A stretch of 64,000 nt of DNA from Thalassotalea sp. 273M-4 (GTDB taxonomy: Bacteria > Pseudomonadota > Gammaproteobacteria > Enterobacterales > Alteromonadaceae). Positions 11,047 through 56,343 of this stretch are shown here, piece after piece. The DNA is taken from positions 2,418,001-2,482,000 of the forward strand of contig NZ_CP166961.1 in assembly GCF_041410465.1 (NCBI RefSeq), read 5' to 3'. A program made the position numbers and the translations under genes. The notes beneath the pieces were generated by a model, which was not told the DNA's origin, ran no database searches, and was given only the letters and a program-made list of their open reading frames with translations. Every line of letters starts with the position of its first letter. The first letter of the stretch is position 1.

Positions 11047-11421
11047 CAACATTCCTTGACAACACCTGCAAAGGTAAAAAAATTTATCACCGAACTTTAT
11101 TAACAACTTTAAAAACAGGCTACTGATTTAAAAAACAACCAGTAGTGGCTAAAAATATAGAACACCTGCTTAATAAAACCAGCCTAAAAGCATTTTAAAG
11201 CTGACAAAAAAAACCAACAAAGTTGCTTATTTAATCGCTTACAAATCACAATATAAACATTAAGTGGACCTTGTGCGAATTAATAAACAAACCAATTGAA
11301 ATTGCATCTTAGTAAGGTTAAATGATATCTTTGCATCCAATTGTTAGCCTAGCTAACCCTATGTACACCTACAACGAGAAGCAAATATGTTCATTTGCTC
11401 ACGACAAAAGGCGCTATATAT
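11047..11421. other. intergenic region between hpt and the AbgT transporter
   Basis: This 375-bp, A+T-rich divergent spacer must hold the promoters of both genes. I see no coding frame of note and no clear hairpin. A short frame starting at the TTG at 11,395 is simply an upstream extension of the transporter gene. Confidence 0.4.
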
Positions 11422-13002: not shown

Positions 13003-13021
13003 CGAACATTTAAAAAATAAC

Positions 13022-13044
13022 AAGGTGAGCGTAATGCTCACCTT
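13022..13044 (+). terminator. bidirectional intrinsic terminator
   Basis: The 9-bp stem AAGGTGAGC-GTAAT-GCTCACCTT is followed by a T-run. It lies between the convergent AbgT transporter and potassium channel genes and probably serves both. Confidence 0.85.
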
Positions 13045-13069
13045 TTTTTATTCTTAATATGCATTTACC

Positions 13070-14005: not shown

Positions 14006-14077
14006 AATGATTTTTCCAATTTAAGCTTAGCATTAAAGCTTGGCTTCCCCCCAAGAGTGGCGCAACCAAGATCGACC

Positions 14078-15292
14078 TTAATTATGGTCGGGTTTTGCAA
14101 CTTCTTCTTTTAAAAATGTAAAATATGCTTTGGTTAAAGGAATAGCTATTTGTGAAATTAACGCTATACCCCACAGTAAGTTACCAATAAGGGCTGGCAC
14201 AAAGGGTAATAAAAATAAGGTAAGCAAAGCAAAAAACACCCCGAACATTCTAACCAAAGGGGTAGCGAAGCGATGGGCAACTCGCGTTTCAATGCTGTAC
14301 TGGATCCACAATAAACTGAGTAAATAAATGATCAGGCCACTACAGCCAATGATGCCATAGCCTAAAGGATACGGTTGCCAAAATCCTACCTTGACTTCTC
14401 CCGCAAGCGCTACGCCCATCATCACTGCCGATAACATCAGACATAAATGCGCTAACCACCATGACACCAAAACGGACTTCGTTTGATTTTTGGGTTTGCC
14501 ATTACCTACAAAATCAAAATAAATCCAACACAACACAAAAATAGATATCCCACCCCAGATAAAATTAACAAACACACTGGGACTGACTTTATAAACGCCT
14601 TTTTCAGATAAGGTGATCACCAGTTTAAAAAAGCCCTCTCCAATCACAATTAACAGCAATAAAGCAAAGCGCTCTGACATATGACCTAACCGCGGTATAA
14701 AGCGTTTGTGCTCTAGTACTCCGACTTTGGGCAACATGTACAAAATTTGAATGGATACAATGCCAACACCAAACAACCAATAATTATACGGGGCCGGTAA
14801 AAAAGCGCTGATCAAGAAAATAACCGCAAGAATTGCAAAATTACGACTGACATCATGAGCAAGTCGAGTGCCTTCAACACCGAGTCGAATGGTTCGATAA
14901 TACAAGTAGCTTGTTATAAGTCTATTTAGAGCAAACGCCAAGGCAAAGTAGAGCCAGCCTTTATCATGAATACTAGGGATGGCAGCGGCCATAACCATAG
15001 ACGTCACAATTTGGCAGGACATAATGATTCGATGCTTAAGATCAGTGCTGACATACAAAGAATTGAATACGCTAGAGTCTGCCCACGCGAACCATATTGA
15101 AATAAATAGTCCCGCAAAAATCGCAAAACCAGCGATAGATAAATGATCGCTCAAATAATTGCCCAGCAAAAAAATGATCACAACATGAATTAAATCGTAG
15201 AAAAGCTCAACCCAGTGCACATGATCATGAGCCTCGTCCTGATCTAAGTGATGTTTAGGCAAACGCCACATTGGATGGTTTTCTAGTGCCAT
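14078..15292 (-). CDS. low-temperature-requirement A (LtrA) family membrane protein
   Basis: This 404-aa protein has about ten to twelve membrane helices. The LtrA signature appears near the N-terminus as WVELFYDLIHVVIIFLLGNY, and IVIGEGFFKLVITLSE is a second typical patch. The N-terminus contains a His/Asp-rich stretch (HHLDQDEAHDHVHW) that might bind metal; this is speculative. The biochemical role of the family is not well defined. It follows the K+ channel on the same strand with a 72-bp gap, but no functional link is evident. Confidence 0.85.
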   Translation of the reverse strand: MALENHPMWRLPKHHLDQDEAHDHVHWVELFYDLIHVVIIFLLGNYLSDHLSIAGFAIFAGLFISIWFAWADSSVFNSLYVSTDLKHRIIMSCQIVTSMVMAAAIPSIHDKGWLYFALAFALNRLITSYLYYRTIRLGVEGTRLAHDVSRNFAILAVIFLISAFLPAPYNYWLFGVGIVSIQILYMLPKVGVLEHKRFIPRLGHMSERFALLLLIVIGEGFFKLVITLSEKGVYKVSPSVFVNFIWGGISIFVLCWIYFDFVGNGKPKNQTKSVLVSWWLAHLCLMLSAVMMGVALAGEVKVGFWQPYPLGYGIIGCSGLIIYLLSLLWIQYSIETRVAHRFATPLVRMFGVFFALLTLFLLPFVPALIGNLLWGIALISQIAIPLTKAYFTFLKEEVAKPDHN

Positions 15293-37437: not shown

Positions 37438-38805
37438 TCACATGGCATCACTGTGACTAGTAATCCCTAACAACTCCAATTTAACTCTATTCTTGGCCTG
37501 GTGACTTACATCAAACGGCACGACTCTCAATTTTAATTTATGATCATCGTCATAATAAAAGTCATTTTCTAATATCGTATCGAAGTTATCTGTTTTGGGA
37601 TAAATCAAAATTAATACTCCTTCCCCCTTGAGATACTTATAGCCATAACCCAGCATTTGATAGAAGTCAGACTGTGACAAATCAAATTTATCTTTACCTG
37701 CTTTCTTTTTTTGATCGATTAATTTCCATTTTGTATCCAATACAGTGTCCAAACCATTAAGCTCTTTAAGGTAAAGATCAGGCTTGAGGCGGAAATAGCT
37801 TTTATCACCATAAGTCACCAATGCTTTGCTTTGTACTTGAAAAGATAGCTCTTGAGGGGTAGTCACTCGTTGCTTCAGATATTTAGCGACAAAGTTTTCA
37901 AACACTGCTTCCATTGGAAACAACAACGAATAAGCATTGTTATCACCTAACATTGACTGAGGTGAGTAGCCCTCCAATATAAGCCTTGTCCAACTTAACG
38001 GCACATCATAATGTTGCATGCCCCTTTGCAGTTTTACACTGGAAAAGTCATTCTTGTAGTTTGTGCTAAGAGGCACCTCGTCAAACGTAAAAAGCAGTTC
38101 CTGAGATAACTTTTTACTCTTATTCACACTGGTATACGTCGCGACAGATTTAAGGGCTGAATGTATGAGTCGGTTTTCAGCTCTGTCCATGATGTAAGCA
38201 TCGAACTCAACGTAAAACTTGTGACGATTGATAAAGTTGTGCTTTAGCTGTTGACTATGATGCAATTTCCCTTTTAAAAAATTGCTATTGCTTTGCTCCC
38301 GAACATATTCACTTCTAATGCCTTTTTTAACAAGATCATTAACTGCATTTAAAAATTGCACTATGAATATTTCCATCAATGGCATTTTTTGCCTTTTAAT
38401 GTTCGCAACTTCAGTCTCAATATGGCGAAACTGCTTAAGGGACTTCAGCATCATTAACAGCGAAAGCCTTGATTGCTCTTCTTTGCTATCACTACTTGCA
38501 TATTTAGCGACTTTTGGTAGCACCTCTATTTGAGTACCATCAGGACAAAGAACCACACCAGCGTAATTCTGCACTTGCAGAACTTCCATGCCATGTGCAA
38601 TTTTTAGTTTTAAAAAGCGAGACTCTGACTCATCACATAAACAGCATTTCTTTAAATATTCAAAAGCATCTTCCGTGATTGTTTCAACATTATTTTTCTT
38701 TATTGCTTTAGTGCTAGAGCTTAGCAATCCATACTCAAATACGGTAATGTTTGTCGTTTTTCGTCGTTTTAATCTCTTAAGCATGTTGAGCGAGTTAACC
38801 TTCAT
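37438..38805 (-). CDS. mcrC: McrC-type nuclease subunit of a type IV restriction system
   Basis: This 455-aa partner of McrB has an N-terminal domain with the McrC pattern LQVQNYAGVVLCPDG then QIEVLPK (residues 76-98). A C-terminal PD-(D/E)XK nuclease follows, with Asp343 in RLKPDLYL and Asp357-Thr-Lys359 in VLDTKWK. McrBC complexes cut DNA carrying modified cytosines. The gene overlaps the end of mcrB by 11 bp, so the two are translationally coupled. A clear terminator was not found after it. This copy looks intact. Confidence 0.92.
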   Translation of the reverse strand: MKVNSLNMLKRLKRRKTTNITVFEYGLLSSSTKAIKKNNVETITEDAFEYLKKCCLCDESESRFLKLKIAHGMEVLQVQNYAGVVLCPDGTQIEVLPKVAKYASSDSKEEQSRLSLLMMLKSLKQFRHIETEVANIKRQKMPLMEIFIVQFLNAVNDLVKKGIRSEYVREQSNSNFLKGKLHHSQQLKHNFINRHKFYVEFDAYIMDRAENRLIHSALKSVATYTSVNKSKKLSQELLFTFDEVPLSTNYKNDFSSVKLQRGMQHYDVPLSWTRLILEGYSPQSMLGDNNAYSLLFPMEAVFENFVAKYLKQRVTTPQELSFQVQSKALVTYGDKSYFRLKPDLYLKELNGLDTVLDTKWKLIDQKKKAGKDKFDLSQSDFYQMLGYGYKYLKGEGVLILIYPKTDNFDTILENDFYYDDDHKLKLRVVPFDVSHQAKNRVKLELLGITSHSDAM

Positions 38806-40858
38806 CCTGATTTGGGAAAATTAAATCACTGGCGCTATACATGCCTATATAGGTAAGAGCATCAAGCCAAAGCTTAGAATCAGCTTTGATTAACGTATAA
38901 TCCTGAACATCGTCTGCATAATCACCAACATCGTCAGTATCACCAAAAAGCATCTCGTAATCTACATCTGACTGCTTGATAAGTTGATATGCTTTGTTTT
39001 TTTGATTGTCACCAAGAACTAAGCGAATCTTTTGCCAATCTTCAAAAAAGTATTCAGCCAGTAAAGGAATAACCTTATTTTGAAAGCAGTTCTTAAGTTC
39101 ATTAAGCGCTTTATCATCCTCACCAGCAACAATAGCCTTAACTACAGGCATTAAGAAAGCGTGACCTAGCTGATGTTCCCTGTCATAAAGTGCGGATATT
39201 CGTTTGTTTAATGTTTGTAATAACAAGGCTAAATCGACTTCAAAACCATTACTTTTAACTGTGAACGGCACACCACCTTCGTCACGTAATACACTGTAAT
39301 CAGGCATCATCTCAACAAAATCAAAACGGCGGCGAAGGGCTGTATCCATAAGTGCCAGAGATCTATCTGCGGTATTCATCGTACCAATAATATAAAGATT
39401 ATCTGGTACAGAAAATCTATCACCAGAATATGGTAGGGTTACTTCAATAGCTTCCGACTGTCCTAAACGCTTTGATGGCTCAATGAGTGTAATTAACTCA
39501 CCGAAAATTTTTGATATATTGCCGCGATTTATTTCATCGATAATTAGAACGAAGTTTTTACGTTGGGTACTTTTATTAGCTCTTCTTGCAATTAATTCAG
39601 CGCAAAGAGGTTTGAATAATGTTTTGTACCCAGAAACGAAATAAACATCAGTGCTTGAGCTTAGAGCACGTAATTTTTCCGCATTGACTTCATCTATAAA
39701 TAGTGATTTATACTGAACCAAGTCAACCACTTCATCAATTACAGTCCTAGGCATGAATAAGTCTGTGCCACTTTGTTTAATGATGTGGATAATTTCAGCC
39801 GATATTGATTGCACCTTAAAACTACCAAACATATCGCCTATTTTTATGTAGCTTGATGCGCTATCGACTCCTTTTGCTTCATTGCAAATAGCTTTAAATA
39901 CCCCATCCTTTTCATAGTAACTAAGTTGGTCGCCTTCGGTTTTAGCACTTAGCCCCTCGACAAATTCCTCATATCCATAACTTTGATGGAAGGTAACAAA
40001 CCTAATTCGTCCAGTATTAAACAAGCCTTTATAGAGTTGAGTTAGCTCCTCTCGCTGCTCTTGTGTCGCACCAAAGGTTTCATCTATACCTAACTCACTA
40101 AATAGTTGAGGATCTGCTGCCTTTACTGCAGCTTGTATTGAGTGGTAGGTTTTTCCAGTTCCCGGCGGTCCATATAGGATTTGGTTGAGTGATGGGGTTG
40201 ATTTAACTGAATAAACTGAACTGCTTGGCTCTTTTACAAAATTACTTTTCTGTTTTTGCTCATTCAGCTTTCTATCCAACTCTTCAGACAAATGCCAAAT
40301 AGCCATGTTGGTATAAAACGGATCAAAACCTTCAGGTAATAAATTATTTAGCGCACTCTTTAACTCTATGTTCTTTTCACACCAATTACCTTTAAGGATT
40401 AATCCCAAATTAAATTCTTCGTTTAAGTATTTGGCTGCTAGATCAAAGTTGACTTCACGAACGGCTGAAGTAACTTTCTCAGGAGCAATTGCAGCAAAAG
40501 CTCTGTTCAACAAGGCTTTGTAGTATTTTGACAGAATTCCGTCATTGACGGCTTCTCTAAACTTTTCACTTACCATTTTAAACGTTTTGCTATTGGGAGC
40601 TTCGAAAATTAAGTTAGTAATTTCTGAGAGAAAAGACTTTGCATTTTCAAATTCTGTTTTCGATGGAGCGCCTTGCATGAGACTCGATACTGAATTATCT
40701 CTGGTATACCAAATCAACTCTAAACTGCTATCAGATAAAGGGTCATCAAGTACGAGCTGGTTAGTTTTCTTATAGCCTTTATACCAGCCAGATTCTTTGT
40801 AATTCAGCTTATACGCATAATGTTCTACAAGTTCTTTAAAAGTCGAAAAATGTTGCAC
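38795..40858 (-). CDS. mcrB: McrB-type AAA+ GTPase of a type IV restriction system
   Basis: This 687-aa motor and recognition subunit has the Walker A motif YGPPGTGKTYHS at 229-240 and Walker B with the McrB signature IIDEINRGNISKIFGE at 439-454. The sensor motif IIGTMNTADRSLALMDTAL at 490-508 is followed by RRRFDF. The N-terminal ~220 residues, which decide what modification is read, are not one I can identify, so target specificity is open. It lies 10 bp after the 410-aa coiled-coil protein gene and overlaps mcrC, giving a three-gene operon. Confidence 0.93.
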   Translation of the reverse strand: MQHFSTFKELVEHYAYKLNYKESGWYKGYKKTNQLVLDDPLSDSSLELIWYTRDNSVSSLMQGAPSKTEFENAKSFLSEITNLIFEAPNSKTFKMVSEKFREAVNDGILSKYYKALLNRAFAAIAPEKVTSAVREVNFDLAAKYLNEEFNLGLILKGNWCEKNIELKSALNNLLPEGFDPFYTNMAIWHLSEELDRKLNEQKQKSNFVKEPSSSVYSVKSTPSLNQILYGPPGTGKTYHSIQAAVKAADPQLFSELGIDETFGATQEQREELTQLYKGLFNTGRIRFVTFHQSYGYEEFVEGLSAKTEGDQLSYYEKDGVFKAICNEAKGVDSASSYIKIGDMFGSFKVQSISAEIIHIIKQSGTDLFMPRTVIDEVVDLVQYKSLFIDEVNAEKLRALSSSTDVYFVSGYKTLFKPLCAELIARRANKSTQRKNFVLIIDEINRGNISKIFGELITLIEPSKRLGQSEAIEVTLPYSGDRFSVPDNLYIIGTMNTADRSLALMDTALRRRFDFVEMMPDYSVLRDEGGVPFTVKSNGFEVDLALLLQTLNKRISALYDREHQLGHAFLMPVVKAIVAGEDDKALNELKNCFQNKVIPLLAEYFFEDWQKIRLVLGDNQKNKAYQLIKQSDVDYEMLFGDTDDVGDYADDVQDYTLIKADSKLWLDALTYIGMYSASDLIFPNQDEG

Positions 40859-40868: not shown

Positions 40869-42101
40869 TTATGCCTTGGGAGACAATCTATTAATTAAGT
40901 CTACGAGTTGAGTGGGCCCTTGGTCATTTTTAACCATGTCTGTTGTGCTAGGTCTAAAAAGGGTTTGCAGAATAAGTTGACGGTCTTCTTCTTTGGGTCC
41001 TTGGCCTTTTCGCGTTAATGCAAGGTAGGTGTGGATCATGGTTCTGCGCTCTTGTGCATCAGTAGCCAAGTGAAGGTGAGACATAAATATATTGCCCACG
41101 ACTTTAATTATCCAAATACCAAACGTAGTTATCGCTGCTGCGGTTACTAAGCGGCTAACGGCTACTTCCTTGAATGGCTTATCTAAGCCCCAAATTGCAA
41201 ATAATATAATGGTCAGCAGAACAACAAATGTCGTTGCGCCTAAAGCCTTAGCGTATAACTTAGCTTTGTCATTATGGCTATTTTGTTGGATGCCCCAGTA
41301 TTTAACCGCTGCGTGCAGTGCTAACTTATCATCGTAAGTTTTTGTGAGGTTTTCTAAATCAGTTTTGGAGTTTGCGAGTGCATCTTTGAACTTTTTCTTA
41401 AACTCTTCTTTATGCGTTTCTAAGTCTGCTGTTTGCGTTTCAGTTTGTTCTTGCCAATCACTGATTAAACCATCAACTTTTAAGTTTTGACGTGTTGCTT
41501 CATCAATTTTTTGTTGATATTCATTAACCCAGTTATCTCGCTGATTAGTTTGCTCTTCATCCCAACGCTCTTTTAATTGCTGCAATGAGTCCGCTTCATC
41601 TTTAATACGATCATCACTACCCGCAAAATACTCATCTGCCTGCTTCAAGCCTAGATACATTTTGCGATCAACAGGTGATACATTAACATCAAAAGCTACC
41701 GCTAAGGCAGCGAGCCCCAATTCAACACTTTTCTCAGATTGGCGTTGCACGAATGGTGCAAATAACGCTTCTTCAGTAAAAAGTTGTTTATTAGTTAGAT
41801 AAAAAGAAAAGCTATTACTAAATTGCTCAACTCGATTGTTATAGTTATCAGGATCGTTTTTAAAGCGGCGCAAGCCATCGGTTATTTGTTTTTGTAAACT
41901 ATTCCAACTTTGATCAAACGTACTGAATAACTGCTGCATTTGATAACGCTGGCTAACATTACTGTGAAAACCATATAGCTGACGTTGTTGTTGAACCCAA
42001 GCCAACAACTTATCCGGGTCATCAAACCACTTACTGCCAGTCTCAGTTTTTATAGTGATGCGCTTTAATTTAGTTTCTTCTTTTTCTAACTCTTCTGACA
42101 T
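40869..42101 (-). CDS. coiled-coil, two-TM protein leading the mcrBC operon (DUF6161-like)
   Basis: This is a 410-aa protein. The N-terminal ~170 residues are soluble and followed by a long charged coiled coil at about 175-265 (LKERWDEEQTNQRDNWVNEY). Two membrane helices follow at about 285-345 (ATTFVVLLTIILFAIWGL and LVTAAAITTFGIWIIKVV). The conserved-looking C-terminal tail is TYLALTRKGQGPKEEDRQLI then LQTLFRP. The tail resembles proteins annotated DUF6161; I give that as resemblance only. It starts the operon and sits 10 bp before mcrB. It could be a membrane effector or sensor added to McrBC. Confidence 0.75.
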   Translation of the reverse strand: MSEELEKEETKLKRITIKTETGSKWFDDPDKLLAWVQQQRQLYGFHSNVSQRYQMQQLFSTFDQSWNSLQKQITDGLRRFKNDPDNYNNRVEQFSNSFSFYLTNKQLFTEEALFAPFVQRQSEKSVELGLAALAVAFDVNVSPVDRKMYLGLKQADEYFAGSDDRIKDEADSLQQLKERWDEEQTNQRDNWVNEYQQKIDEATRQNLKVDGLISDWQEQTETQTADLETHKEEFKKKFKDALANSKTDLENLTKTYDDKLALHAAVKYWGIQQNSHNDKAKLYAKALGATTFVVLLTIILFAIWGLDKPFKEVAVSRLVTAAAITTFGIWIIKVVGNIFMSHLHLATDAQERRTMIHTYLALTRKGQGPKEEDRQLILQTLFRPSTTDMVKNDQGPTQLVDLINRLSPKA

Positions 42102-42584: not shown

Positions 42585-43244
42585 TTAGAATTTATCTATT
42601 TTCAAACGTTTTATTTCCTCTTTTAATTCAGATAAAACTAGATCCGTATCTATCTGTTTTATATTCTCTTTCACATGCTTCTTAAGCATTGGGTCTGTAG
42701 TTAAATTAATTCTCACTGTTAAATTGTCTTCCTTCTCACTCTTTTCGATATTCTCAATGAGAAAACTTTCAAAATTCCACGCATCAATCACTTTATCAAT
42801 GTTTCTATCCAAAACTTCTTTTCTTTCCTTAGGTTTTGAAAGGTAATCCACAAGATTTTGATGCATCTCACTTTGCTTCCAAGCTTCTTTAACGGATTCA
42901 CCTATAGTGTTTTTTAACAACCATAAACCTACGGCAGTTAATGTACCTCCAATTAAAATACTTCCCTTTTCTATTCGCTCAAAATAATAGGCATCTATAT
43001 GATGTAAGGGCCCTTTTAACTTATCTCTTAAAGATTGTTTTTCTGAAGGGCTTATAGCACTGCTATTTATTAGATAAAATACTTCTTGATATTGTATTTC
43101 TCTTAGAAGGGACGATAATTTTTTTAGAAGCCCTCTTAGAGTTCTATCTGAGACTATATTTAGATCAGGGTGATAAATTTCGAAGGTAATATTTTTCATG
43201 ATGTTAGGGCTCGAGTTCAGGCGTCTATTACTTGGTTTTTTCAT
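42585..43244 (-). CDS. unknown protein with one membrane segment
   Basis: This protein is up to 219 aa; a start at 43,199 giving MKNITFEIYHPDLNIV (204 aa) is equally possible, as neither has a strong ribosome-binding site. About 90 soluble residues precede a hydrophobic segment (GSILIGGTLTAVGLWLLKN), and a charged helical part with basic and acidic runs ends the protein. No family is recognised. Three phased dyads stand directly upstream, between a possible promoter and the start, so expression seems tightly controlled. Its place between two defence loci suggests a defence role, which is inference. Confidence 0.65.
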   Translation of the reverse strand: MKKPSNRRLNSSPNIMKNITFEIYHPDLNIVSDRTLRGLLKKLSSLLREIQYQEVFYLINSSAISPSEKQSLRDKLKGPLHHIDAYYFERIEKGSILIGGTLTAVGLWLLKNTIGESVKEAWKQSEMHQNLVDYLSKPKERKEVLDRNIDKVIDAWNFESFLIENIEKSEKEDNLTVRINLTTDPMLKKHVKENIKQIDTDLVLSELKEEIKRLKIDKF

Positions 43245-43437: not shown

Positions 43438-43938
43438 TTATTGACTAGCAAGTAATTCTACAAACTTCGATTTAGCTTGTTCGTAATACTTAAGGTGATT
43501 GAAATCAACGTTTCTTACTTTTTTTATATACCTATCTTCTTTAGGCAATATAAAGTTATGCAATTGGGTTCCATTAAACTGGCCCTTCAAATCTAAATAA
43601 AATCGACGGGGATCATTATGCTTTGCAATACTCATCATCCTATATTGCTCTGTCCTAGTTTTATTATCTTTACCAGCTAAGTAATAGATTGCATTATGTT
43701 TAAGTGTGAACTCTCCGATTGCCACATCATACAGAGGCATGAAACCGTGAAGTTCACCTGCTTTCCTAGCAAAAACAGGTATTTCTAACTTTACAGGACC
43801 TTCGTGCATAATAATAATTGTCGGCCATGTTCTTTTTCGAGGGTAACTCAAAAACTCTGATTCAAAGTCATCAGAGAACGTAACTTTAGGATTAGGTTTC
43901 TCTTCAAAATTAATGTTCAGCTTATCAATTAAATTCAT
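43438..43938 (-). CDS. unknown 166-aa protein, third gene of helicase-nuclease operon
   Basis: This small soluble protein has no recognised family. It contains segments such as KRTWPTIIIMHEGPVKLEIP, FMPLYDVAIGEFTLKHNA and RRFYLDLKGQFNGTQLHNF, suggesting a compact beta-rich fold, and no membrane segment. It starts 13 bp after the stop of the 678-aa gene and ends the operon, followed by the dyad region of the next gene. Its conservation with the other two genes would show whether it is a core subunit. Confidence 0.75.
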   Translation of the reverse strand: MNLIDKLNINFEEKPNPKVTFSDDFESEFLSYPRKRTWPTIIIMHEGPVKLEIPVFARKAGELHGFMPLYDVAIGEFTLKHNAIYYLAGKDNKTRTEQYRMMSIAKHNDPRRFYLDLKGQFNGTQLHNFILPKEDRYIKKVRNVDFNHLKYYEQAKSKFVELLASQ

Positions 43939-43951
43939 ATAACCTACCTTA

Positions 43952-45988
43952 TTAATTTTCTAGGTATAGCTTGGCAATTTTTTCCAATAGCGAACTTTTA
44001 CTTACTTCATTTATTTTTAAAATATCTTCAGTGAACGAATTAAAAAACAAATGTGTTATTGGCTGTTCCAAAGCATTCAACAAATCACCATTACTGTTAA
44101 AGGTGAGTAAGTTATAAATACGATTTTGCTTTGCTATATCTTGATTAGGTCTTTGCTTTTGGGCTACAAAGTAGAATAGATCGACGCCAGCTTCTTGCAG
44201 GTAAACATGATGATACTGCTTGCGTTCTTTCGGCAATAAATAGTAAGGCAATACAGAACTTTCAATGCTGCTTTGTCGATTGACGGTTCGTTCATCACTT
44301 TCTGCAACTGAAATAGAATCAACTAATGTGTTACCAATAATCTGAGGTACACGTATTGTGCTATATGTCGTAAGTAAAACATCATTATCTTCATCGTATA
44401 AATAGAAACTACCGTTGTGAAAGTTTCGTTCTCCAAAAAAAGAACACTCTAATTTCAATCTAGCTTCAGATTTAATCACCTGGTTATTTGTTATTTTTAA
44501 TACATTGTCTTTTATCGTCACTTCAACAACTGATGCAAAAAAGTTATTTTTTCTTCTTGCCGTTTTTCTTACATAAACAAGCTTTAAGCTTGCACTAGGC
44601 AAGTTAATGTCTGTAAATTGCTGATTAATGAAGACACTCTGTTTTAACCACAATTCAGATTTAATTCTTTCTAACTTATAGGGGGATATCGCATAGCGTT
44701 CTTCATCACCTTTTACTATCGATTCTTTATCCGATTCAGAAAAGTTTAGCCCCTGTATAACAACCTGCGTTTGTGATTCAAATTTATCAATTTTTAATCG
44801 TGTATAGTAATCAAGGTTCTGCTTTTGCGAAAAATTTGTATTGCAATAAGCATCCCAAAAGCCAGTAAACACCCTATCTGGCTCACAAGATAAAGTGATA
44901 CTAGAATTTCCATCCCCTTCATTTAATACGATATAACTTATATCCGGTGACATATCTTCAATTGCTAATGAAGGCTTAACAATTGACAGACCAGTTTTCT
45001 CGAACTCTGAATGAAGCTGAGATAAAGCTTTATCTTTTTTCACCGGGTCAAAATCACGCCCTAAATTATCTATTAGAACAATGTTTGAGGGATGCTCTTT
45101 TTCAGACTCTAAAAATTGATCAGTTACATGCGTTGCATTAAAGATGCGTGGTTCAAATGCTATATCTAGTCTATTTAATATGCCTTGTAATATGTCAGAG
45201 ATAAGGTTTTGTGCATAATTAACTGAAGCTGGATACTTATCACCAAAAGACATAAACTTGCGTTTGGAGAATTTCGTGGCGCTAATATCTCTACTTGCCT
45301 GATAGGAAAACTCTTTGTTTTTAAATAACGCTTTAGTCTCATCTAGATCTGCTGTTACAGCTTCCAACTTTTGAGTTTTAAAAACCTTCTTCTTCAACTC
45401 AAAACACAATTCTTGAGTGGGCGAAAAATAAATTTCAGGTTTAAGCACTTCAAAATATGCCGTTCCATTCTTTTTTTCTCGACCAGACCTTTGCACGCTC
45501 AAGTAAAGCTCTGCGTTATAAAAGCTTGGAGAAAACTCATATTTATCCTTGGTTTGCTCCATAAACTCTGTCTTAAGCTGCAAGCTAATTAGTCCAGATA
45601 TCAAACGCTCCTTTTGTGATTTACTTAGTTGAGATAATTCCTCAACCAATACAGCGTAGTTAGGTAAAATATGAGTTAAATAGAAAAAATATACTTCATA
45701 CGAGCCATTGTTATATAGCTTTACCATCTCATATTGAACATTTTTATCTTTAGATAACTTAAGCTCTCTACGAATTGATATTTTTATCTCTCGATGAATT
45801 CTTTGCTCAAATTCAGCTTGACTCTTTTCTTCCTTAACGAAAGACTTAGACTTACAGCCTATGTATAAATCACTATTAAGTGATTGAAATAATGATGCTA
45901 TAAGTTCATTGAGCTCACCGTGAACATCAATAATATTAGTGGATGCTGCTGGCATATTATTGGCAAGAATAGTACTTTGATAAGTCAT
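43952..45988 (-). CDS. unknown 678-aa protein, second gene of helicase-nuclease operon
   Basis: I do not recognise this protein. It is soluble, with no signal or membrane helix. An N-terminal helical part (about 1-130) is followed by mixed alpha/beta segments. IVLIDNLGRDFDPVKKDKAL near 310 and AGVDLFYFVAQKQRPNQDIA near 625 have the look of a nuclease- or Argonaute-like alpha/beta core, but no catalytic tetrad can be read with confidence. Its ATG overlaps the helicase stop (TAATG), showing strict translational coupling, so it probably binds the helicase. Alternatives are a DNA-end or nucleic-acid recognition subunit. Confidence 0.8.
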   Translation of the reverse strand: MTYQSTILANNMPAASTNIIDVHGELNELIASLFQSLNSDLYIGCKSKSFVKEEKSQAEFEQRIHREIKISIRRELKLSKDKNVQYEMVKLYNNGSYEVYFFYLTHILPNYAVLVEELSQLSKSQKERLISGLISLQLKTEFMEQTKDKYEFSPSFYNAELYLSVQRSGREKKNGTAYFEVLKPEIYFSPTQELCFELKKKVFKTQKLEAVTADLDETKALFKNKEFSYQASRDISATKFSKRKFMSFGDKYPASVNYAQNLISDILQGILNRLDIAFEPRIFNATHVTDQFLESEKEHPSNIVLIDNLGRDFDPVKKDKALSQLHSEFEKTGLSIVKPSLAIEDMSPDISYIVLNEGDGNSSITLSCEPDRVFTGFWDAYCNTNFSQKQNLDYYTRLKIDKFESQTQVVIQGLNFSESDKESIVKGDEERYAISPYKLERIKSELWLKQSVFINQQFTDINLPSASLKLVYVRKTARRKNNFFASVVEVTIKDNVLKITNNQVIKSEARLKLECSFFGERNFHNGSFYLYDEDNDVLLTTYSTIRVPQIIGNTLVDSISVAESDERTVNRQSSIESSVLPYYLLPKERKQYHHVYLQEAGVDLFYFVAQKQRPNQDIAKQNRIYNLLTFNSNGDLLNALEQPITHLFFNSFTEDILKINEVSKSSLLEKIAKLYLEN

Positions 45989-48900
45989 TACACATTTCCT
46001 TGAAGTAAAGTTGATACCACACGATTAAGTGCAATTCTTTGTTTAAGCTGACTACCGTCAAAATATTGTGTGGTTTCACCATATGCATTTCTTTTGTGTT
46101 TTGGTCTATAGCTAGATTCTTCTTTAAAAAGGTTCAAATAATAGAGTTTCCCGCTGTTATCAACTTCTTGCTCATGGTTCAATGAATTGTTCTCTAAGCG
46201 CCCATTTACATACATGTAATGAACTTCATCATAAGTACAACTAACGTATTCTGAGATAGTATTAATCTTTGATAGTGCTTTTTTATGAGTACTTTTAGAA
46301 AGCACGGCTTTATCTAAACTAGATGACCAATTCTTAACGTCAATGCATAACAACATTCCCTCGACTTCTACATAAAAGTCAAAAAGCTCATACGCTCTTT
46401 TTCCAACCCTTTTAATAACTTCCTGAGTAGATAGCGGAGTAACGTTAAGTTTATCTAGGAGCAGAGAAAACAAGTGTTCTCCTACATTACCTTTAATCAA
46501 TTTGATAAATTTTGGGTGAGGTACATACTTTTGGAAAGCACCTAAGGATATTGATGCACTTTCACGAACGAGCGTTGTGACAAGGTTATCCTGAGTGAAT
46601 TCCATTTTACTGGTGTAGTCTAAAGATATCATTTTTTCTGGGCGATATAGGCGATCTCCATTGACTATATCAGTCAATATTTCTGGAGATTTATCGCTGT
46701 AACAGAGCTTTAAACTCTGCTTATTTCCGTCTAACCGTATGTACATTTTATCAATTGCTGCGGCGACCAATTTATCACTTTTTGCTATTTGAGATGCTTG
46801 TAATTGTTGAATGTACTTTTCTGGGTTACTGGCAGACGTTATCTTTCTTAATAATTCATTAAACTCCATAGAATCATCATCACCTCTTCGGGCGTCTTCA
46901 ATTATCTCGGGGACTGTTACTTCAAAAAATTCATTCAAAAGCTCTCCTGATGATTTGACCTCTAATTCAAACGCCTCTCTCTCAGACTCTGTTTTGAATC
47001 CGACCTCAAGGCTTCTTTCGTGACATTCAGTTTTAAAGCGATGATTTAGTAACGACATACTTTCGAAAAAAATGTCATTTTTAGGGTCTTTAGATAACCT
47101 CGAAAACTGAACAGCCGCTATATCAGCAATATCAGATGCCATATATATTTCACTAAGCATATTCGCATCTTTTCTTTCAATGCGACCAATGGCTTGCATA
47201 ATAGCTTTCAGTAACTCAAGTTCATGCTCATAATTCAAGAATCGGTAATCTTTACCATGAACGAGATTTACCTCAAACTCGCTAAGTGCTTTGTCTTCAG
47301 AAGTATCTGAAATGCGCTTCATTATTGATAGACAATTAGCTAACGAATAAAGCGTTTTTTCGCCGGTTGCACTATCTTTTATAACTTGGCTCCAGAAAGG
47401 AGAATTAACTAACACCAGTCGCTCAAAATCAACCTCGAATCTACTCCCCGGTTCATTGAGGTATTCAACAAAATAGTTTAACCCTGTGCCGGCACCTTTG
47501 TAGGTAGACATAAACGCCAACTTCAAATTGTTTGAATCAACTTGAACAAACTTTCTAACATCAACCTCTTTATTAAGCTCAGCATTAAAAAGCACAGTTT
47601 GAATTACAGGTTTACCTTGGAAAGGAGTAAATTGGAATATTCTTCCCTTTTTATCTAACCCTCTAAATCCTTCAGGTTTAGCAGCTTTTCCTGCCCTTAT
47701 TGCCATTACATATTTTTTTAAGGCTCCTAAAAAGTTACCCGATAACGCTAAAGATAGTGTATGTTTTCCATCATATGCACAAAGTAACCAGGCTGATAAT
47801 TGCCTTTTAAATTCAATCGTTTTGTATTTATCTTGCTTATAACTGTAATCTTTTAACTTGCGATACCAGAGCTCAAAAGTAGCCTTAAAATCATCTGTTA
47901 GTACACGTTCATCTATAACTTCACGGTTTTCATCAAACACGTGAAACTGAACTTTCCTCAATTCAGCTCTTGTTTCTCTTAAATTAACGAGTGTATCTTT
48001 TGAATCTGAATCTCTAACAACAATTTCTACGCCTAGGTTATTAGTACCTTCACAACAGTATTTTCTCAAAAAAGGTTGGTTATATTGACCAACAATATTT
48101 TTATTTATGCCACTTGTAGCACTTAGCGCTATTACTGCATTTTGTGTATTGTGCAGCATCCGTAGAATTGAAACTTCGGGTTGTTCTTTAATTAAGTTCA
48201 AAGAAAAATTTACATAAGTGAGCTTTTCTAATGACGGCTCTCTAAATTCAAGTAACTTTTGTGGGATTAAAGAAAACACCGTTTTTGGGTGAAAGTATGT
48301 ATAAAAATGATCAATCTGAATTTCCTCACTCTCATCTGGGCGATCAAACATACTTTCAACTTCAGATGCTACCGTTCTGGCTTTCTTCATGAATTTGTAT
48401 AACGGGTAGTTTTGGCTACTATCTCCGCCCTGTTTCAGTGACTTAACAAATTCAGATGAAGATTTGAACTCTTTAGCTGCTGCTGCTAAAACAGCCATAG
48501 TTACTTGATAAACATCATGCAGCGATAAAGTGTTATCAGATTTATCGGTAGTATAATAAAGCTGGCATGTACCCGTACCATGAGCTAATCGAACTTTAAT
48601 TCTTTTTAGACCATCTTCATTAAAGTAACGCTTAGGGGTAAAACAAAAAGCATTCCTTGTTAGATTAATTATTTGCTCTGCATCACCATGCCTTATCTGA
48701 ACAAAATCAATATTTCCTGCAAATGTAGTTAAGACTGATTTCAAATTGAGACCCGCCGATAAATCACAATATTTAGAAAGGTTATCTTTAATCCTTTCTA
48801 TAAAAGCTAACTTATCAGCGTAAAATGGCGTGTATTCAATATCACTTTCAACGGTTTCCGTTGCTTGCATATATATTCGATAAACACCGGCAAATACATG

Positions 48901-50478
48901 GGCTAGCTGAATATCTGGGGTAATTAAAGTAGTCGTTGCAGAATCAGAGAAAAGCTTGTGTGCATCATGTAATTCATCGATGACAACTGTAAAGCCTATT
49001 CCTTTATCACGGAAGTAATTAGAATCATCAGCCTCGAAAAAGTCCTCTTTTAAAAACTCGACTCTTTTCTCATGTTTATCAGATAGGTGAATACCGGTTC
49101 TAATATTAGAATCCGTCAGATGCTTTTTTCCACCAACAATGCAATCAAATGGCATTGATTTAAAGGAAAACAGTCCTTGATGATTTTTTTGAGGCAACCG
49201 AATATTAAGATCAAACTTGTTAGTTGTAGCAAGCATGATACAAGGTTTAACCATTGCTACAGAAAACGGAATACAGTGTTTAATAATTGCAGTTCGAAAC
49301 ATGTCTAATTCAGTATTAGACTCAAACAAAGCCTCTAAATCCACGGGGGAAGAATTATAATTTAAGCAGGCCAAAGATAAATCAAACAACGTTTTTTCCA
49401 TATTTCTGCGCTGTTCTTCAAGTTGCTTCTTCAAGTCACTTATAAGCTCTGCATTATCCGCTTCATAGGTTTTTACCTCCGTATTAATACGGTTTTGAAG
49501 TGATTCAACTGTTCTTACTGACTGTGCAAGCCTAGTTAACCCTTTTTCTAACGATTTATACTTGGTTTTCTTCTTAATCCACGTTGTGTAAAGAACACTA
49601 TTTTTTATTTTTTCGCCATTTGGTGAGCTAACCCAGCTCTCAAATTCGAGATCTGTAAGATCTAACATAGAAAGAAACGCGACAAACTCAATACCGGCGT
49701 TGTGTGCTTTACTAACTAAGCTTGAATCAAAATCAAATTGTGATTTTTGTGGACTAACAAAAACAAGGTTTGTAAATTGACCGCTAATATTTGGCTTAGT
49801 GGAATAATCTATGTACTCGGAAATAACACCATAGGATTTGCCAAAGCCAGTTCCATCATTTGATTGAATCAAACAAGGCCTATTGTGGTTAGTTACATTA
49901 TACAATTGGGATGCATGAGCCCTATATTTATTAACTGCATCTTTCAGTTTATTTTCGGGTTGTAACTTACCAACGGAAACAGCTATAGGTTCGTCTTCTT
50001 GAAGGTATGTTCTGTCTGAAAATTGATACCCTTTAGAACTATCATGAACTAGAAGACCTGCCCTAACTAATTCATACTTTATATTCAGTTCACTTATCTC
50101 GAATTGCTCACTTAATAGAGATAGGCAATCTTGCAGTGGACTACTAATTTTGATCAATTCGGTTAGTGCCAACTCAAGTTGAGTTGCTCTTTCTGTAGAT
50201 AACCTTTCAAATTGTGGATGAATACTAAACTGCTCAATAGAAACGTTAGCATCTCTTTTATAAAAAACACCATCTCTATAACTAGTACGGTTATTAGCCT
50301 TAAAAAAACCCATTTTAGCTAACATGAATAAAACAGCACGAGGTTCTTCATCAACTTGTTCAGCAATACAATGTATTACCTCACTTGACTCATTTACTTC
50401 CTTCAAAGCTACTAACTTTTTATCATGCATCTTAGCAATAACAAATAGTTGCTCTTTTTTTCCATTAGTCCATTTCAT
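45988..50478 (-). CDS. large superfamily 2-type helicase fused to PD-(D/E)XK nuclease
   Basis: This 1496-aa protein has an N-terminal ~190 residues of helical, possibly DNA-reading character. The motor has Walker A NDGTGFGKSY (207-216), Walker B VVIDELHD (498-505), motif III ALSATSG (784-790), a motif V-like STYKGAGTGLNY (991-1002) and motif VI MQAIGRIERKD (1094-1104). Between motifs I and II lies a coiled-coil insert near 325-370. The C-terminus holds a PD-(D/E)XK site: Glu1334 (NVGEHLF), Asp1367 (LFDFYVEVEG) and Asp1380/Lys1382 (CIDVKNW). It is thus a translocating nuclease. It leads a coupled operon, with a WYL regulator divergent upstream. I cannot match it to a named defence system. Confidence 0.85.
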   Translation of the reverse strand: MKWTNGKKEQLFVIAKMHDKKLVALKEVNESSEVIHCIAEQVDEEPRAVLFMLAKMGFFKANNRTSYRDGVFYKRDANVSIEQFSIHPQFERLSTERATQLELALTELIKISSPLQDCLSLLSEQFEISELNIKYELVRAGLLVHDSSKGYQFSDRTYLQEDEPIAVSVGKLQPENKLKDAVNKYRAHASQLYNVTNHNRPCLIQSNDGTGFGKSYGVISEYIDYSTKPNISGQFTNLVFVSPQKSQFDFDSSLVSKAHNAGIEFVAFLSMLDLTDLEFESWVSSPNGEKIKNSVLYTTWIKKKTKYKSLEKGLTRLAQSVRTVESLQNRINTEVKTYEADNAELISDLKKQLEEQRRNMEKTLFDLSLACLNYNSSPVDLEALFESNTELDMFRTAIIKHCIPFSVAMVKPCIMLATTNKFDLNIRLPQKNHQGLFSFKSMPFDCIVGGKKHLTDSNIRTGIHLSDKHEKRVEFLKEDFFEADDSNYFRDKGIGFTVVIDELHDAHKLFSDSATTTLITPDIQLAHVFAGVYRIYMQATETVESDIEYTPFYADKLAFIERIKDNLSKYCDLSAGLNLKSVLTTFAGNIDFVQIRHGDAEQIINLTRNAFCFTPKRYFNEDGLKRIKVRLAHGTGTCQLYYTTDKSDNTLSLHDVYQVTMAVLAAAAKEFKSSSEFVKSLKQGGDSSQNYPLYKFMKKARTVASEVESMFDRPDESEEIQIDHFYTYFHPKTVFSLIPQKLLEFREPSLEKLTYVNFSLNLIKEQPEVSILRMLHNTQNAVIALSATSGINKNIVGQYNQPFLRKYCCEGTNNLGVEIVVRDSDSKDTLVNLRETRAELRKVQFHVFDENREVIDERVLTDDFKATFELWYRKLKDYSYKQDKYKTIEFKRQLSAWLLCAYDGKHTLSLALSGNFLGALKKYVMAIRAGKAAKPEGFRGLDKKGRIFQFTPFQGKPVIQTVLFNAELNKEVDVRKFVQVDSNNLKLAFMSTYKGAGTGLNYFVEYLNEPGSRFEVDFERLVLVNSPFWSQVIKDSATGEKTLYSLANCLSIMKRISDTSEDKALSEFEVNLVHGKDYRFLNYEHELELLKAIMQAIGRIERKDANMLSEIYMASDIADIAAVQFSRLSKDPKNDIFFESMSLLNHRFKTECHERSLEVGFKTESEREAFELEVKSSGELLNEFFEVTVPEIIEDARRGDDDSMEFNELLRKITSASNPEKYIQQLQASQIAKSDKLVAAAIDKMYIRLDGNKQSLKLCYSDKSPEILTDIVNGDRLYRPEKMISLDYTSKMEFTQDNLVTTLVRESASISLGAFQKYVPHPKFIKLIKGNVGEHLFSLLLDKLNVTPLSTQEVIKRVGKRAYELFDFYVEVEGMLLCIDVKNWSSSLDKAVLSKSTHKKALSKINTISEYVSCTYDEVHYMYVNGRLENNSLNHEQEVDNSGKLYYLNLFKEESSYRPKHKRNAYGETTQYFDGSQLKQRIALNRVVSTLLQGNV

Positions 50479-50571
50479 GAATAATCTCTAATACTATTAA
50501 TCTTCAAATTACATTACATAATAAGAAATACCGTAGCTTTGCCTACCAGCAGTAATTACATTTAAAACCAT

Positions 50572-50796
50572 TTAGCCTTTCGGTGGATATGGATCATTAC
50601 CGTAACTATTTTTCTCTCTGATTTGACCGTTCTTACCATGTATTAGCATTTCTGAACCTTGATTCTGTGCGATAGAGCGAGCCTGTGCTGCCGCTTCTGC
50701 CTGCGTGCTGTGAACTGATGTAGCTTTAGAGTTACCAGCGCCTTTAACAGCCCAACCAGAGTCATGTGGTACTACATGTTGATTTTTTCCTGACAT
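50572..50796 (-). CDS. small DUF2188-type protein
   Basis: This 74-aa protein has the DUF2188 pattern: HVVPHDSGWAVKGAGNSKAT, then the helix TQAEAAAQARSIAQNQG and GSEMLIHGKNGQIREKNSYG. AAGGAG stands at good distance before the ATG. It lies upstream of the helicase-nuclease gene with a 93-bp gap on the same strand and could be cotranscribed. Proteins of this type are small and stress-linked in many bacteria, but no mechanism is established. Whether it belongs to the system or is a bystander is open. Confidence 0.82.
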   Translation of the reverse strand: MSGKNQHVVPHDSGWAVKGAGNSKATSVHSTQAEAAAQARSIAQNQGSEMLIHGKNGQIREKNSYGNDPYPPKG

Positions 50797-51024
50797 TTTT
50801 TACTCCTTATTAAACAATTTAATAAACCTATATAGCGAACATATCTAGGTGCTCACACAACCACCCGCGCAGTTCAATTAATAATCTACCGTATACTGAT
50901 GATACAATCAAGATATAATTTTAAGGCAGTAACAAAACCATAAAGACTTTATCATGGTATTGTATTTGTACTCTAATGAAATCTATGCTATACAAGCCTT
51001 ATTATAAATAAACGATGCTTAAAG
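50797..51024. promoter_or_regulatory. divergent control region of the helicase-nuclease locus
   Basis: This 228-bp A+T-rich spacer lies between the DUF2188 gene (minus) and the WYL regulator (plus). It must hold both promoters. A weak dyad GTAT-N7-ATAC lies near 50,891; no strong operator is visible to me. Confidence 0.4.
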
Positions 51025-51897
51025 ATGATTGATCTCAAACATTTACCTTCACAACAAGTAAGCCGATTAAGGTACATAGAGTTTTGCCTAAGATTTCTAG
51101 GTAGCTTTACCAGAGCTGATCTTATTAAGAAGTTTGGGATAGGAACTGCGGCTGCAAGTAGAGATATTGCTGAATATAAAAATCTGATGCCAAACAACAT
51201 CTCTGATTCATCAAATTCAAAAAACTATTTCTTAAGTGAGGATTGGAAAGAGCTATTCAAATTCAAATCTTCAGAGGTTTTAGCACAACTTACAGGAAAT
51301 GAAATTCAAGCTAATACAAAGTCTTATATATCGAGTGAAGTGATCGATATTATTGATGAACCTGATATTGAGGTTGTTACAGCAATAACTAAAGGAATTC
51401 TTCAACGAGCTCCTATTAAATGTGAGTATTTCTCCAACTCAAGTGGTGCAAGTGAAAAAATACTAATTCCACACTCTTACATGTTTAATGGTTCAAGATG
51501 GCACTTAAGGGCTTATGATAGAACAAAGGGTCGATTTGCCGATTTTGTAATTTCTAGATTTAAAAGTGCTCATACTATTGAAGAACCAGTATTGCCTAAA
51601 GAGCTTCAGAACGAAGATGTTCAATGGAATCGTCAAGTCGATTTAGAAATTATTCCTCACCCTAGCTTAAAAGATTCAAGTGGCGTTTTAAATGAATTCA
51701 ACATGACTGATGGGATTCTTCACAAACGAGTACGAGCATCATCAGTTGGTTACTTACTTCAAAAGTTATATGTTGATTGCTCAAAAGATCCTATCGTTGA
51801 AGAACATTACTTTAGATTAAAACTTAAAAATCGCTTGGCATTATACGGAGTAGAAGGTCTCCACCTAGCTCCTAATTTTGATGGATTTAATGATTAA
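51025..51897 (+). CDS. WYL-domain transcriptional regulator (BrxR/CapW-like)
   Basis: This 290-aa regulator has an N-terminal winged HTH at about 10-60 (SFTRADLIKKFGIGTAAASR). A central WYL domain at about 125-195 (ILIPHSYMFNGSRWHLRAYD, then RFADFVISRF) and a C-terminal extension (WCX-like) follow. The order wHTH-WYL-WCX is that of defence-island repressors such as BrxR and CapW. It is divergent from the DUF2188/helicase-nuclease block and most likely represses it, perhaps responding to nucleic-acid ligands through the WYL pocket (inference). Confidence 0.88.
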   Translation: MIDLKHLPSQQVSRLRYIEFCLRFLGSFTRADLIKKFGIGTAAASRDIAEYKNLMPNNISDSSNSKNYFLSEDWKELFKFKSSEVLAQLTGNEIQANTKSYISSEVIDIIDEPDIEVVTAITKGILQRAPIKCEYFSNSSGASEKILIPHSYMFNGSRWHLRAYDRTKGRFADFVISRFKSAHTIEEPVLPKELQNEDVQWNRQVDLEIIPHPSLKDSSGVLNEFNMTDGILHKRVRASSVGYLLQKLYVDCSKDPIVEEHYFRLKLKNRLALYGVEGLHLAPNFDGFND

Positions 51898-51955: not shown

Positions 51956-52351
51956 TCATATCAATTTAAACGCTTTAGTGAAGTTTTTAGGGTGTTGATG
52001 AAACCTTACATGGCCTTTGGCATTCAATCGTTTTCGTATTTGTCTGAAAAGTGGCGTGATATAACCCCAATTACCAACTCTTGAAAAATAAATGACGTAG
52101 TCAATTTTTGCGTCACCCCATTTATTTTCTACTAGATTTTCTTCATCATTGGTTTCAATTGATTTAACTTGGATGCGATAAAAATCATCGCCATCAGAGA
52201 TAACAAAATCGGTTTTTAAACCATGATCTATCATGGGAAGAAAAACATCCCAACCATCATTGAGCAGCCAGCTTGCTGCTAGTGTTTCATATGAAAGGCT
52301 TTTGTAATGTTTTAAAGATTGGTTTGCTGGAGTTGAGTTTTTTACAGGCAT
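51956..52351 (-). CDS. small PD-(D/E)XK-type protein
   Basis: This 131-aa protein carries the likely nuclease core GWDVFLPMIDHGLKTDFVIS followed by DDFYRIQVKSIE, that is a metal-binding Asp and a Q-x-K active-site strand. This resembles the PD-(D/E)XK group related to group I intron-encoded endonucleases (PDDEXK_5), here standing free. It is convergent with the WYL regulator. It may be a homing-type or restriction-type nuclease; no partner methylase is visible. A structured spacer lies upstream. Confidence 0.7.
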   Translation of the reverse strand: MPVKNSTPANQSLKHYKSLSYETLAASWLLNDGWDVFLPMIDHGLKTDFVISDGDDFYRIQVKSIETNDEENLVENKWGDAKIDYVIYFSRVGNWGYITPLFRQIRKRLNAKGHVRFHQHPKNFTKAFKLI

Positions 52352-52937: not shown

Positions 52938-54128
<1,191 letters not shown>

Positions 54129-54549: not shown

Positions 54550-56343
54550 ATGCTTAAAAAATCTTCAGAGGGGAAAAAAGAGAAAATAATACCTGAAACC
54601 TTTGATGGTATTCAGGTGAATTGCTGTAACAATCCTTTGTGTATAAACTACGGTGTTGACCCTCATTACAATAACATAATAAAAAAGAGAAAGTCATCAT
54701 CTTCTGTATATAAAGTTCAGGCATCGGGTAAAAACTCCCCTGTAATCTTCTGTGATCAATGTCTTTCAAGAGTTCCTATCAAAAGCAACAAGAGTCTTTC
54801 AGAAGAGTTTAATAGGATAAATAAATTTAGAGTTGTGGCTAAAACTTGTTGCCCTACAATTGATTGCCCAAATAACAATATCGACATTGCAAATTCTGAT
54901 TCGTATCGTTTTTACGGCAAAACGGCTGCTGGCTCTCAGCGATACCAATGCCTATCCTGCAAGAAAGTCTTTTCAAAGCCGAATAAAAGAAGAAAGCAAA
55001 GAGTAAGCCATAAAAATCGAACTATTTTTAAAGCTATTGTTGCTCAAGTTCCTGTCCAGGGAATTCTTGAAATAGCAGAAATAAATCCAGAAACTTTCTA
55101 CAACCGAGTCGGATGGATCTATGAAAAGGTTCAAGAGTTTATGGGAGAAAGGGAACTTAAATTTTCGGAAACAGGATGTGACAGGCTTTATTTATCTTGC
55201 GATAGGCAAGTTCAAACGGTCAATTGGCCTGAACGAAAAGATAGAAGAATTATTCAGCTTTACGGACTAGCCACTGTTGATAATAGAAGTCGATATGTCT
55301 TTGGTTGGGATTTTAATGTTGACCACGATATTTCTCAAGAAGCTATTCTTAATGACCCGATTCTTGAGCTAGAAAAGGATAAAAGACCACAGCATCGAAA
55401 ATATGCTAGGTTGTGGCTTCCTGATGAATTTAAACAGCAAGAAACTGAATTTTTAGAAAAGGCTTTACACGAGAAAGATCCTAACCCTTTAAAGCTAGAT
55501 GTAGATAGTCCAGAATACCAAATATGGCTTACGGAATATAAGCATTCTATTCAACTTAACTTAGATGCTATTGATGAGCCAAATGGTGATGTTAGATTGC
55601 CAAAACAGGGTATGTTAGTTCATAGCGACTACTCTACATATGCCCACTTTCTTGCCAATAAAGAAATGTTTAAATCAGTTGAAAAGGTTCGATTCTTCGT
55701 TGATAGAGAGCCTTCAATACGGAACGCTATTAATATAATTTTTAATGACCGAATTACTGCCAGAACTGCTGATGGTTGGTTTGTTGCCAATGGTAAGAAC
55801 ATCTCTGTAAATCAAAGAACATACATGATTAAACAATTTGAAAGGCAGATGCAGTTAAAAACAGGAATCGCATGGAAAGACTTAGATAACACCTCAAAAT
55901 ATCAACTTATCCAAGAGCTTTACCGTCATGAAATTGAAAACCAAATTCCAATCGAAAATGGTAGCCGAAAAACTTGGGTAAGGTGTCCTATACCAACCAT
56001 GTACGAACCGCAAAAAATGGTAAGAATGTTTACTGACTTAGGAGATTACAGTGAAGAACATATGATTAATCTTTACCACAAGGCAAGTCTTCATGGTGTT
56101 GAGGGTTTCTTTAAGGTGGCTAGAGATAAAATTCGTATGTTTAGCCGAGATTCAACGAGTGCCAGTACAAACAACAAATGGTATGGCTTCAGTCCTTATA
56201 GAGTAGATATGATATCAAAGCTATCAGGCATATTTCGCTTTTATCACAACTATATGAAACGAAGAGGTGAGCAACATGAAGTTCCTGCTGTTAAACTTGG
56301 TTTAGCCAAAGCACCAATAAAAATTGAATCATTACTATACTGA
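54550..56343 (+). CDS. zinc-ribbon, DDE transposase-like protein
   Basis: This 597-aa protein has two N-terminal zinc-binding modules: Cys25/26, Cys31, Cys68, Cys71, and Cys100/101, Cys106, Cys134, Cys137 (QRYQCLSCKKVFSKP, as in IS1-type InsA domains). A basic helical segment resembling an HTH follows (RRKQRVSHKNRTIFK and EINPETFYNRVGWI, 146-190). An RNase H-like core is suggested by Asp218 (LYLSCDRQVQTVNW), Asp360 (LVHSDYSTYAHF) and Glu518 (LHGVEGFFKVA). The C-terminus (ISKLSGIFRFYHNYM) looks like the end of IS1/IS1595-type enzymes. It lies just inside the left inverted repeat, the normal place for a transposase. Family name not recognised. Confidence 0.72.
   Translation: MLKKSSEGKKEKIIPETFDGIQVNCCNNPLCINYGVDPHYNNIIKKRKSSSSVYKVQASGKNSPVIFCDQCLSRVPIKSNKSLSEEFNRINKFRVVAKTCCPTIDCPNNNIDIANSDSYRFYGKTAAGSQRYQCLSCKKVFSKPNKRRKQRVSHKNRTIFKAIVAQVPVQGILEIAEINPETFYNRVGWIYEKVQEFMGERELKFSETGCDRLYLSCDRQVQTVNWPERKDRRIIQLYGLATVDNRSRYVFGWDFNVDHDISQEAILNDPILELEKDKRPQHRKYARLWLPDEFKQQETEFLEKALHEKDPNPLKLDVDSPEYQIWLTEYKHSIQLNLDAIDEPNGDVRLPKQGMLVHSDYSTYAHFLANKEMFKSVEKVRFFVDREPSIRNAINIIFNDRITARTADGWFVANGKNISVNQRTYMIKQFERQMQLKTGIAWKDLDNTSKYQLIQELYRHEIENQIPIENGSRKTWVRCPIPTMYEPQKMVRMFTDLGDYSEEHMINLYHKASLHGVEGFFKVARDKIRMFSRDSTSASTNNKWYGFSPYRVDMISKLSGIFRFYHNYMKRRGEQHEVPAVKLGLAKAPIKIESLLY

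Follow-up and report, generated by a model that had tools for sequence, protein, structure and literature searches.

A locus of Thalassotalea sp. 273M-4 that very probably encodes a divergent ApsAB antiplasmid system, beside a BrxR/CapW-type WYL regulator

The 64,000-nucleotide stretch of the Thalassotalea sp. 273M-4 genome analyzed here (contig NZ_CP166961.1, positions 2,418,001 to 2,482,000; referred to as the window and numbered from its first letter) carries, between positions 43438 and 51897, a group of genes for a large helicase-nuclease, a 678-amino-acid (aa) partner, and a divergent WYL regulator. A preliminary description, made from the DNA letters alone, had proposed that these genes form an undescribed defense system. 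We found that the system is of a known kind, published in 2024. Homology, predicted folds, and analogy with a characterized relative make it very probable that the locus encodes an antiplasmid system of the ApsAB kind, on a branch well apart from the Escherichia coli prototype. What looked like an unnamed system is thus settled, and ApsAB, known to act on plasmids, would be extended to a marine branch that lies beside a WYL regulator.

ApsAB is an antiplasmid system of E. coli sequence type 38 (ST38) that consists of the nuclease-helicase ApsA and the Argonaute-like protein ApsB (Zongo et al. 2024, PMC11096173). That paper reports that activity is abolished by the ApsA substitutions K221A and E533A and by K413A in ApsB, that ApsA K1435A has a partial effect, and that a second E. 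coli pair, 28 and 25% identical to ApsAB, still clears a plasmid. For comparison we used the E. coli pair at locus L034 (1,569 and 743 aa), in which all printed ApsA and ApsB motif residues fall at the published numbers (ApsA GFGKS218-222, DELH532-535, SAT823-825, QAVGRVER1140-1147, D1420, and DVK1433-1435; ApsB Y409, K413, Q431, K489, and N743). Because its numbering fits, L034 was taken as ApsAB and serves as a stand-in for the ST38 sequence. The window proteins align with it nearly end to end, at 34.4% identity over 1,465 columns for the helicase and 31.5% over 669 columns for the 678-aa protein. The two genes and their main parts are as follows.

45988..50478, minus strand: apsA-like gene (1,496 aa), a superfamily 2 (SF2) helicase with a C-terminal PD-(D/E)XK nuclease; open reading frame (ORF) with 34.4% identity to L034 ApsA and a DdmD fold match
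47002..49881, minus strand: ApsA helicase part, residues 200-1159 (K214, D501/E502, S786-A787-T788, Q1095..R1102), from invariant columns and the AlphaFold2 model
46189..46521, minus strand: ApsA PD-(D/E)XK nuclease region, residues 1320-1430 (E1334, D1367, D1380, K1382), invariant in 30 rows and in register with the D..DVK site in ApsA of the E. coli type
43952..45988, minus strand: apsB-like gene, Argonaute-like protein of 678 aa, 31.5% identical to L034 ApsB; DdmE is the best match of its AlphaFold2 model
44642..44806, minus strand: putative ApsB MID-type guide-5'-end motif, Y395-x3-K399...Q412-G413...K449, with the matching C-terminal N678 at the gene end

A protein database search with the window helicase returned 39 proteins at E <= 0.001, and we aligned the window protein with 29 of them (30 rows), leaving out eight shorter proteins (1,151 to 1,385 aa) and two of full length. 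The helicase motifs and the nuclease site that the preliminary description had read from the one sequence proved invariant throughout: D208, G209, T210, G211, G213, and K214 in motif I; D501, E502, and H504 in motif II; S786, A787, and T788 in motif III; A996 to N1001 in the motif V-like segment; Q1095, G1098, R1099, and R1102 in motif VI; and E1334, D1367, D1380, and K1382 in the nuclease. In the window protein these read GFGKS, DELH, SAT, QAIGRIER, and D1367...D1380-V-K1382 plus E1334. Residues Y395, K399, Q412-G413, K449, and N678 of ApsB were likewise invariant, in both a 21-row and a 30-row alignment, and this MID motif corresponds to Y409/K413/Q431/K489/N743 of E. coli ApsB. In a tree of 60 ApsA proteins (a quick method, with a midpoint root for drawing), the window protein falls in a six-row group with P0001 to P0005, with Photorhabdus and Vibrio proteins next, and a long branch separates this group from the E. 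coli-type clade. The window pair shares with ApsAB of E. coli ST38 its two-gene order, its helicase, nuclease, and MID motif residues, and near end-to-end homology, but it is a distinct branch and is flanked upstream by genes for WYL and DUF2188 proteins and downstream by a gene for a 166-aa protein.

Scanning genome contigs for the helicase gave 31 loci, with hosts that include an uncultured Colwellia, an Alteromonadales bacterium, Photorhabdus, Vibrio, Neptuniibacter, Amphritea, Pseudomonas, Crenothrix, and many Enterobacterales. An apsB homologue directly follows apsA in 28 of them, and in the other three (L004, L019, and L032) the helicase itself is incomplete. As in the window, where the apsA stop and the apsB start have one base in common (TAATG), the two genes overlap in 24 of these 28 loci; the spacing is 7 bp in L011, L012, and L013 and 47 bp in L027. 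When the 27 genomes behind a set of 30 loci were searched, ApsB was found in 25, as a single match each (partial in the genome of L019), and it was lacking in the other two, the genomes of L004 and L032. Among 343 genomes sampled evenly from the family to which the Mangrovibacter genome belongs, seven contained ApsA and eight ApsB, and all seven ApsA genes stood in adjacent pairs; five of these seven genomes were already among the loci, so that G500 (with coordinates similar to those of L016) and G728 were newly added. The eighth ApsB genome, G626, has two apsB pieces with stops (L046 and L047; G626:C16:10936-12725) and no apsA match, a broken remnant that fits the remark on many decayed copies in the ApsAB paper (PMC11096173). 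We conclude that apsA and apsB form one unit. At L028 of Vibrio maritimus (9992-14462), which is counted among the 28, apsA is split over three ORFs next to an intact apsB.

The family is rare and patchy. Of 369 genomes searched in the class, a single one had it, and ApsB occurred in 1 of 29 genomes of near relatives, each time the window's own. E. coli gave a match in 147 of 5,426 genomes, and the 20 records listed annotate the genes as "hypothetical protein"; in three of those 20 (H8 to H10), IS21 genes lie within the apsAB match. A Photorhabdus apsA stretch searched against E. coli genomes had no match. Among 72,556 plasmid records two gave a match, and in one of these coverage reached at least 80%; none of 50,697 phage records carried the genes, and of 15 pattern stretches in viral contigs none was confirmed. 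At some loci Shango-type genes lie nearby, and Shango is also reported in ApsAB islands (PMC11096173): the three genes before apsA in L014 (4136-9978) are of TerB, BrxC/D, and DEAD type, the make-up described for Shango (PMC10250203). A TerB gene also lies beside apsA in L021 (7228-9645), and in L023 and L030 the ORFs before apsA are close in size to the Shango-type ones (sizes only were compared).

Structure prediction, which the preliminary description had named as a check on the 678- and 166-aa proteins, pointed to a second antiplasmid system. The best match among solved structures was DdmE for the AlphaFold2 model of ApsB and DdmD for that of ApsA, followed in the latter case by DinG/XPD helicases; the DdmD and DdmE folds were thus recovered on predicted models, with the nuclease part barely covered. 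According to a review, DdmE binds a DNA guide, recognizes plasmid DNA, and recruits an autoinhibited DdmD dimer, and DdmD loads on the nontarget strand, translocates, and cuts (PMC12409362). This mechanism is drawn from reviews, one of which interchanges the names DdmD and DdmE in one sentence (PMC12904381). ApsAB and DdmDE probably belong to one structural clan, and ApsB is probably a catalytically inactive Argonaute of DdmE-like fold. The predicted likeness between ApsB and DdmE goes beyond PMC11096173, the only paper on ApsB, DdmE, and Argonaute together found in a search that did not include the primary DdmDE papers. No mechanistic paper on ApsAB was found in the literature searched, and the fold matches suggest that solved structures of DdmDE could serve as guides for ApsAB experiments.

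Several points weigh against these assignments. The window proteins are only 34 and 31% identical to the E. coli pair, and L034 is a stand-in by numbering: of six E. coli-type helicases checked, only L034 and P0030 fit the ApsA numbering and four are shifted (P0025, P0029, P0032, and L035). The window helicase and the 678-aa protein match no Pfam, NCBIfam, or PADLOC family; NCBIfam gave a chance match of the helicase only (13.9 against a cutoff of 70 bits), and the hidden Markov models of PADLOC-DB 2.0.0 (2023), a release older than the ApsAB paper, gave no family for either the window pair or three related pairs. As for the folds, the lead of DdmE is moderate (Foldseek: ~10 to 12% identity, template modeling [TM] score of ~0.5, root mean square deviation [RMSD] of ~10), and DdmE chain 8u0j_A (rank 9, E 6.1e-10) stands below four Thermus Argonaute chains. 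The matches of ApsA to DdmD have TM scores of 0.36 to 0.42 and an RMSD of ~20, which implies that the domain arrangements differ. Residues 1-199 and 1400-1496 of ApsA are missing from its model, and most rows of the VIA-align set end short of the nuclease; among the 14 DdmD rows, 11 reach no farther than model residue 961, about the helicase part. Profile searches of the PDB, which had no positive control, yielded two chance apolipoprotein chains and no DdmD for ApsA (E 1) and no chain, hence no DdmE, for ApsB (E 10). Finally, the ApsAB paper holds the predicted structures of ApsB and DdmE to be different (RMSD 30.6), describes ApsB as without a PIWI RNase H fold or PAZ, and links the two systems via ApsA and DdmD (PMC11096173).

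That the locus is DdmDE proper, as in Vibrio cholerae and Lactobacillus casei, is very unlikely in our judgment. Both window proteins have DdmD and DdmE as their top fold matches, and DdmDE too is an antiplasmid combination of a helicase-nuclease with an inactive Argonaute. However, no sequence-level match to DdmD or DdmE chains was found, whereas the alignments with E. coli ApsA and ApsB cover nearly the full length; the window ApsA is ~300 aa longer than DdmD (1,190 residues in 9c6q); and the MID motif, which PMC11096173 reports as absent from DdmE, is kept in the window ApsB and invariant in its family. A broader proposal is that, contrary to the published account of ApsB and DdmE, ApsAB and DdmDE are one Argonaute-guided helicase-nuclease superfamily and that the present branch has come under WYL control and acquired a swappable accessory slot, whose present occupant, the 166-aa protein, would tune the choice of guide or target; taken as a whole, we consider this unlikely.

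The 166-aa gene lies beyond apsB.

43438..43938, minus strand: 166-aa gene, beginning 13 bp past the end of apsB, a near-orphan passenger with few homologues and not part of the core

The preliminary description had counted this gene as the third member of a coupled unit. Its reading of the ORFs, their coordinates, the TAATG overlap, and the 13-bp gap was accurate, and the gene does start on the same strand 13 bp past the apsB stop and has two homologues in the protein database, 81 to 90% identical. To the idea that its product is an essential third subunit we nevertheless give very little credence. The gene was found in 1 of 24 genomes searched (23 of the 27 pairing genomes, G392 to G395 being left out, plus the window's own), namely, the window's own, and was missing also from both genomes with an ~98% identical helicase, where other genes occupy its position. 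It was absent from 28 of 29 near-relative genomes, the exception being the window itself, and BLAST of the 31 loci gave no match. In viral contigs, two pattern stretches were found and none was confirmed, and nothing was found when its DNA was compared with plasmids. The E. coli system that was tested is described as two genes (PMC11096173). Thus, of the proposed trio, apsA and apsB hold together (seven of seven pairs in the 343-genome draw), and the 166-aa gene is a passenger or local accessory outside the conserved unit.

A pPIWI-RE system, in which an RNA-guided PIWI protein works with a DinG helicase and a separate restriction endonuclease (REase) gene, at first seemed likely, given that helicase, REase fold, and Argonaute-like protein occur together and that DinG/XPD helicases follow DdmD among the fold matches, but it can be virtually dismissed: in the triads described, the REase gene is separate and precedes those for the helicase and PIWI protein (PMC3702460), the window motif lies inside the helicase ORF, and neither window protein matched a pPIWI_RE Pfam model at E 1. 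A genome search with PF13032 was uninformative (0 of 185 genomes, but 0 of 14 controls too).

By homology, ApsA and ApsB probably work like DdmD and DdmE. ApsB would bind a short nucleic acid guide through its MID motif and pair the guide with plasmid DNA; it would then recruit ApsA, the DdmD-like SF2 helicase with its PD-(D/E)XK nuclease, which would run along the exposed strand, unwinding and cutting, so that the plasmid is lost. The divergent WYL protein probably keeps the operon repressed until DNA stress or invasion. The gene unit, motifs, homology, and predicted folds come from this analysis, whereas the work of others on relatives has shown plasmid elimination and a requirement for helicase and MID residues (PMC11096173). 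For this strain, the type of guide, the choice of target, recruitment, and repression by the WYL protein are inferred. The preliminary description was right in proposing a helicase-nuclease with a recognition partner, which here belong to a family directed at mobile DNA, next to a BrxR/CapW-type WYL gene. The possible antiphage role fared less well, since E. coli ApsAB is reported to have no effect on eight phages (PMC11096173).

Upstream of apsA lie the following features, whose genes had been correctly typed in the preliminary description.

50572..50796, minus strand: DUF2188 gene, 74 aa, 93 bp upstream of apsA (PF09954, E 3.7e-27)
51025..51897, plus strand: divergent BrxR/CapW-type WYL regulator, 290 aa, from PDB sequence matches; upstream of apsA in L002 and L003 too
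50884..50903, no strand: imperfect palindrome (13-nucleotide arms, 77% complementary) between the WYL and DUF2188 genes, a weak candidate operator

The best PDB match of the WYL protein was 7qfz (E 1.7e-51, titled "WYL domain-containing protein"), which we take to be a BrxR; it also matched 7tb5 (E 1.8e-24, with the same title), presumably a CapW, as well as 9c5g, titled CapW (E 7.7e-22), and BrxR 7t8k (E 6.3e-19). BrxR and CapW repressors are known next to BREX or CBASS. The window regulator resembles them over most of its 290 aa and in its divergent position at a defense operon, but here it stands beside apsAB. Outside the window, L002 and L003 are the only ones of the 31 loci with this WYL plus DUF2188 pair upstream of apsAB. 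Since the ApsA proteins of these three are 98% identical, the arrangement represents a single lineage. In L031, a WYL protein with 28% identity is encoded ~3 kb past apsB on the downstream side, and WYL relatives occur in 7 of 28 other near-relative genomes, none of them with ApsB. The window regulator is probably a repressor of the locus. In the main text of PMC11096173, neither "WYL" nor "regulator" occurs. A promoter scan was uninformative (17 sites against 28.3 in shuffles).

The GC content is 0.31 to 0.36 at 42 to 52 kb of the window against 0.39 to 0.45 at 1 to 38 kb, which fits the expectation for an acquired island. On the same island lie an McrBC-type pair (37438-40858; an McrC-like protein, PF10117, E 4.8e-98, and an McrB-like AAA protein), a DUF6161 protein (40869-42101, E 2.2e-22) with a further match to AbiZ of PADLOC (E 4.1e-16), and, between the AbiZ-like and 166-aa genes, a 219-aa ORF (42585-43244) with nothing above cutoff in Pfam, NCBIfam, or PADLOC. 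Beside the WYL gene, as also in L002 and L003, is a 131-aa PDDEXK_5-like protein (51956-52351; 25.4 bits against a Pfam cutoff of 26.1). IS3-like transposase pieces lie at the island border (52938-54128), with an rve domain in 52938-53459 and the remainder judged by eye, and a 597-aa ORF with no Pfam match (54550-56343) is possibly a transposase, judged by eye from its position and Cys pairs.

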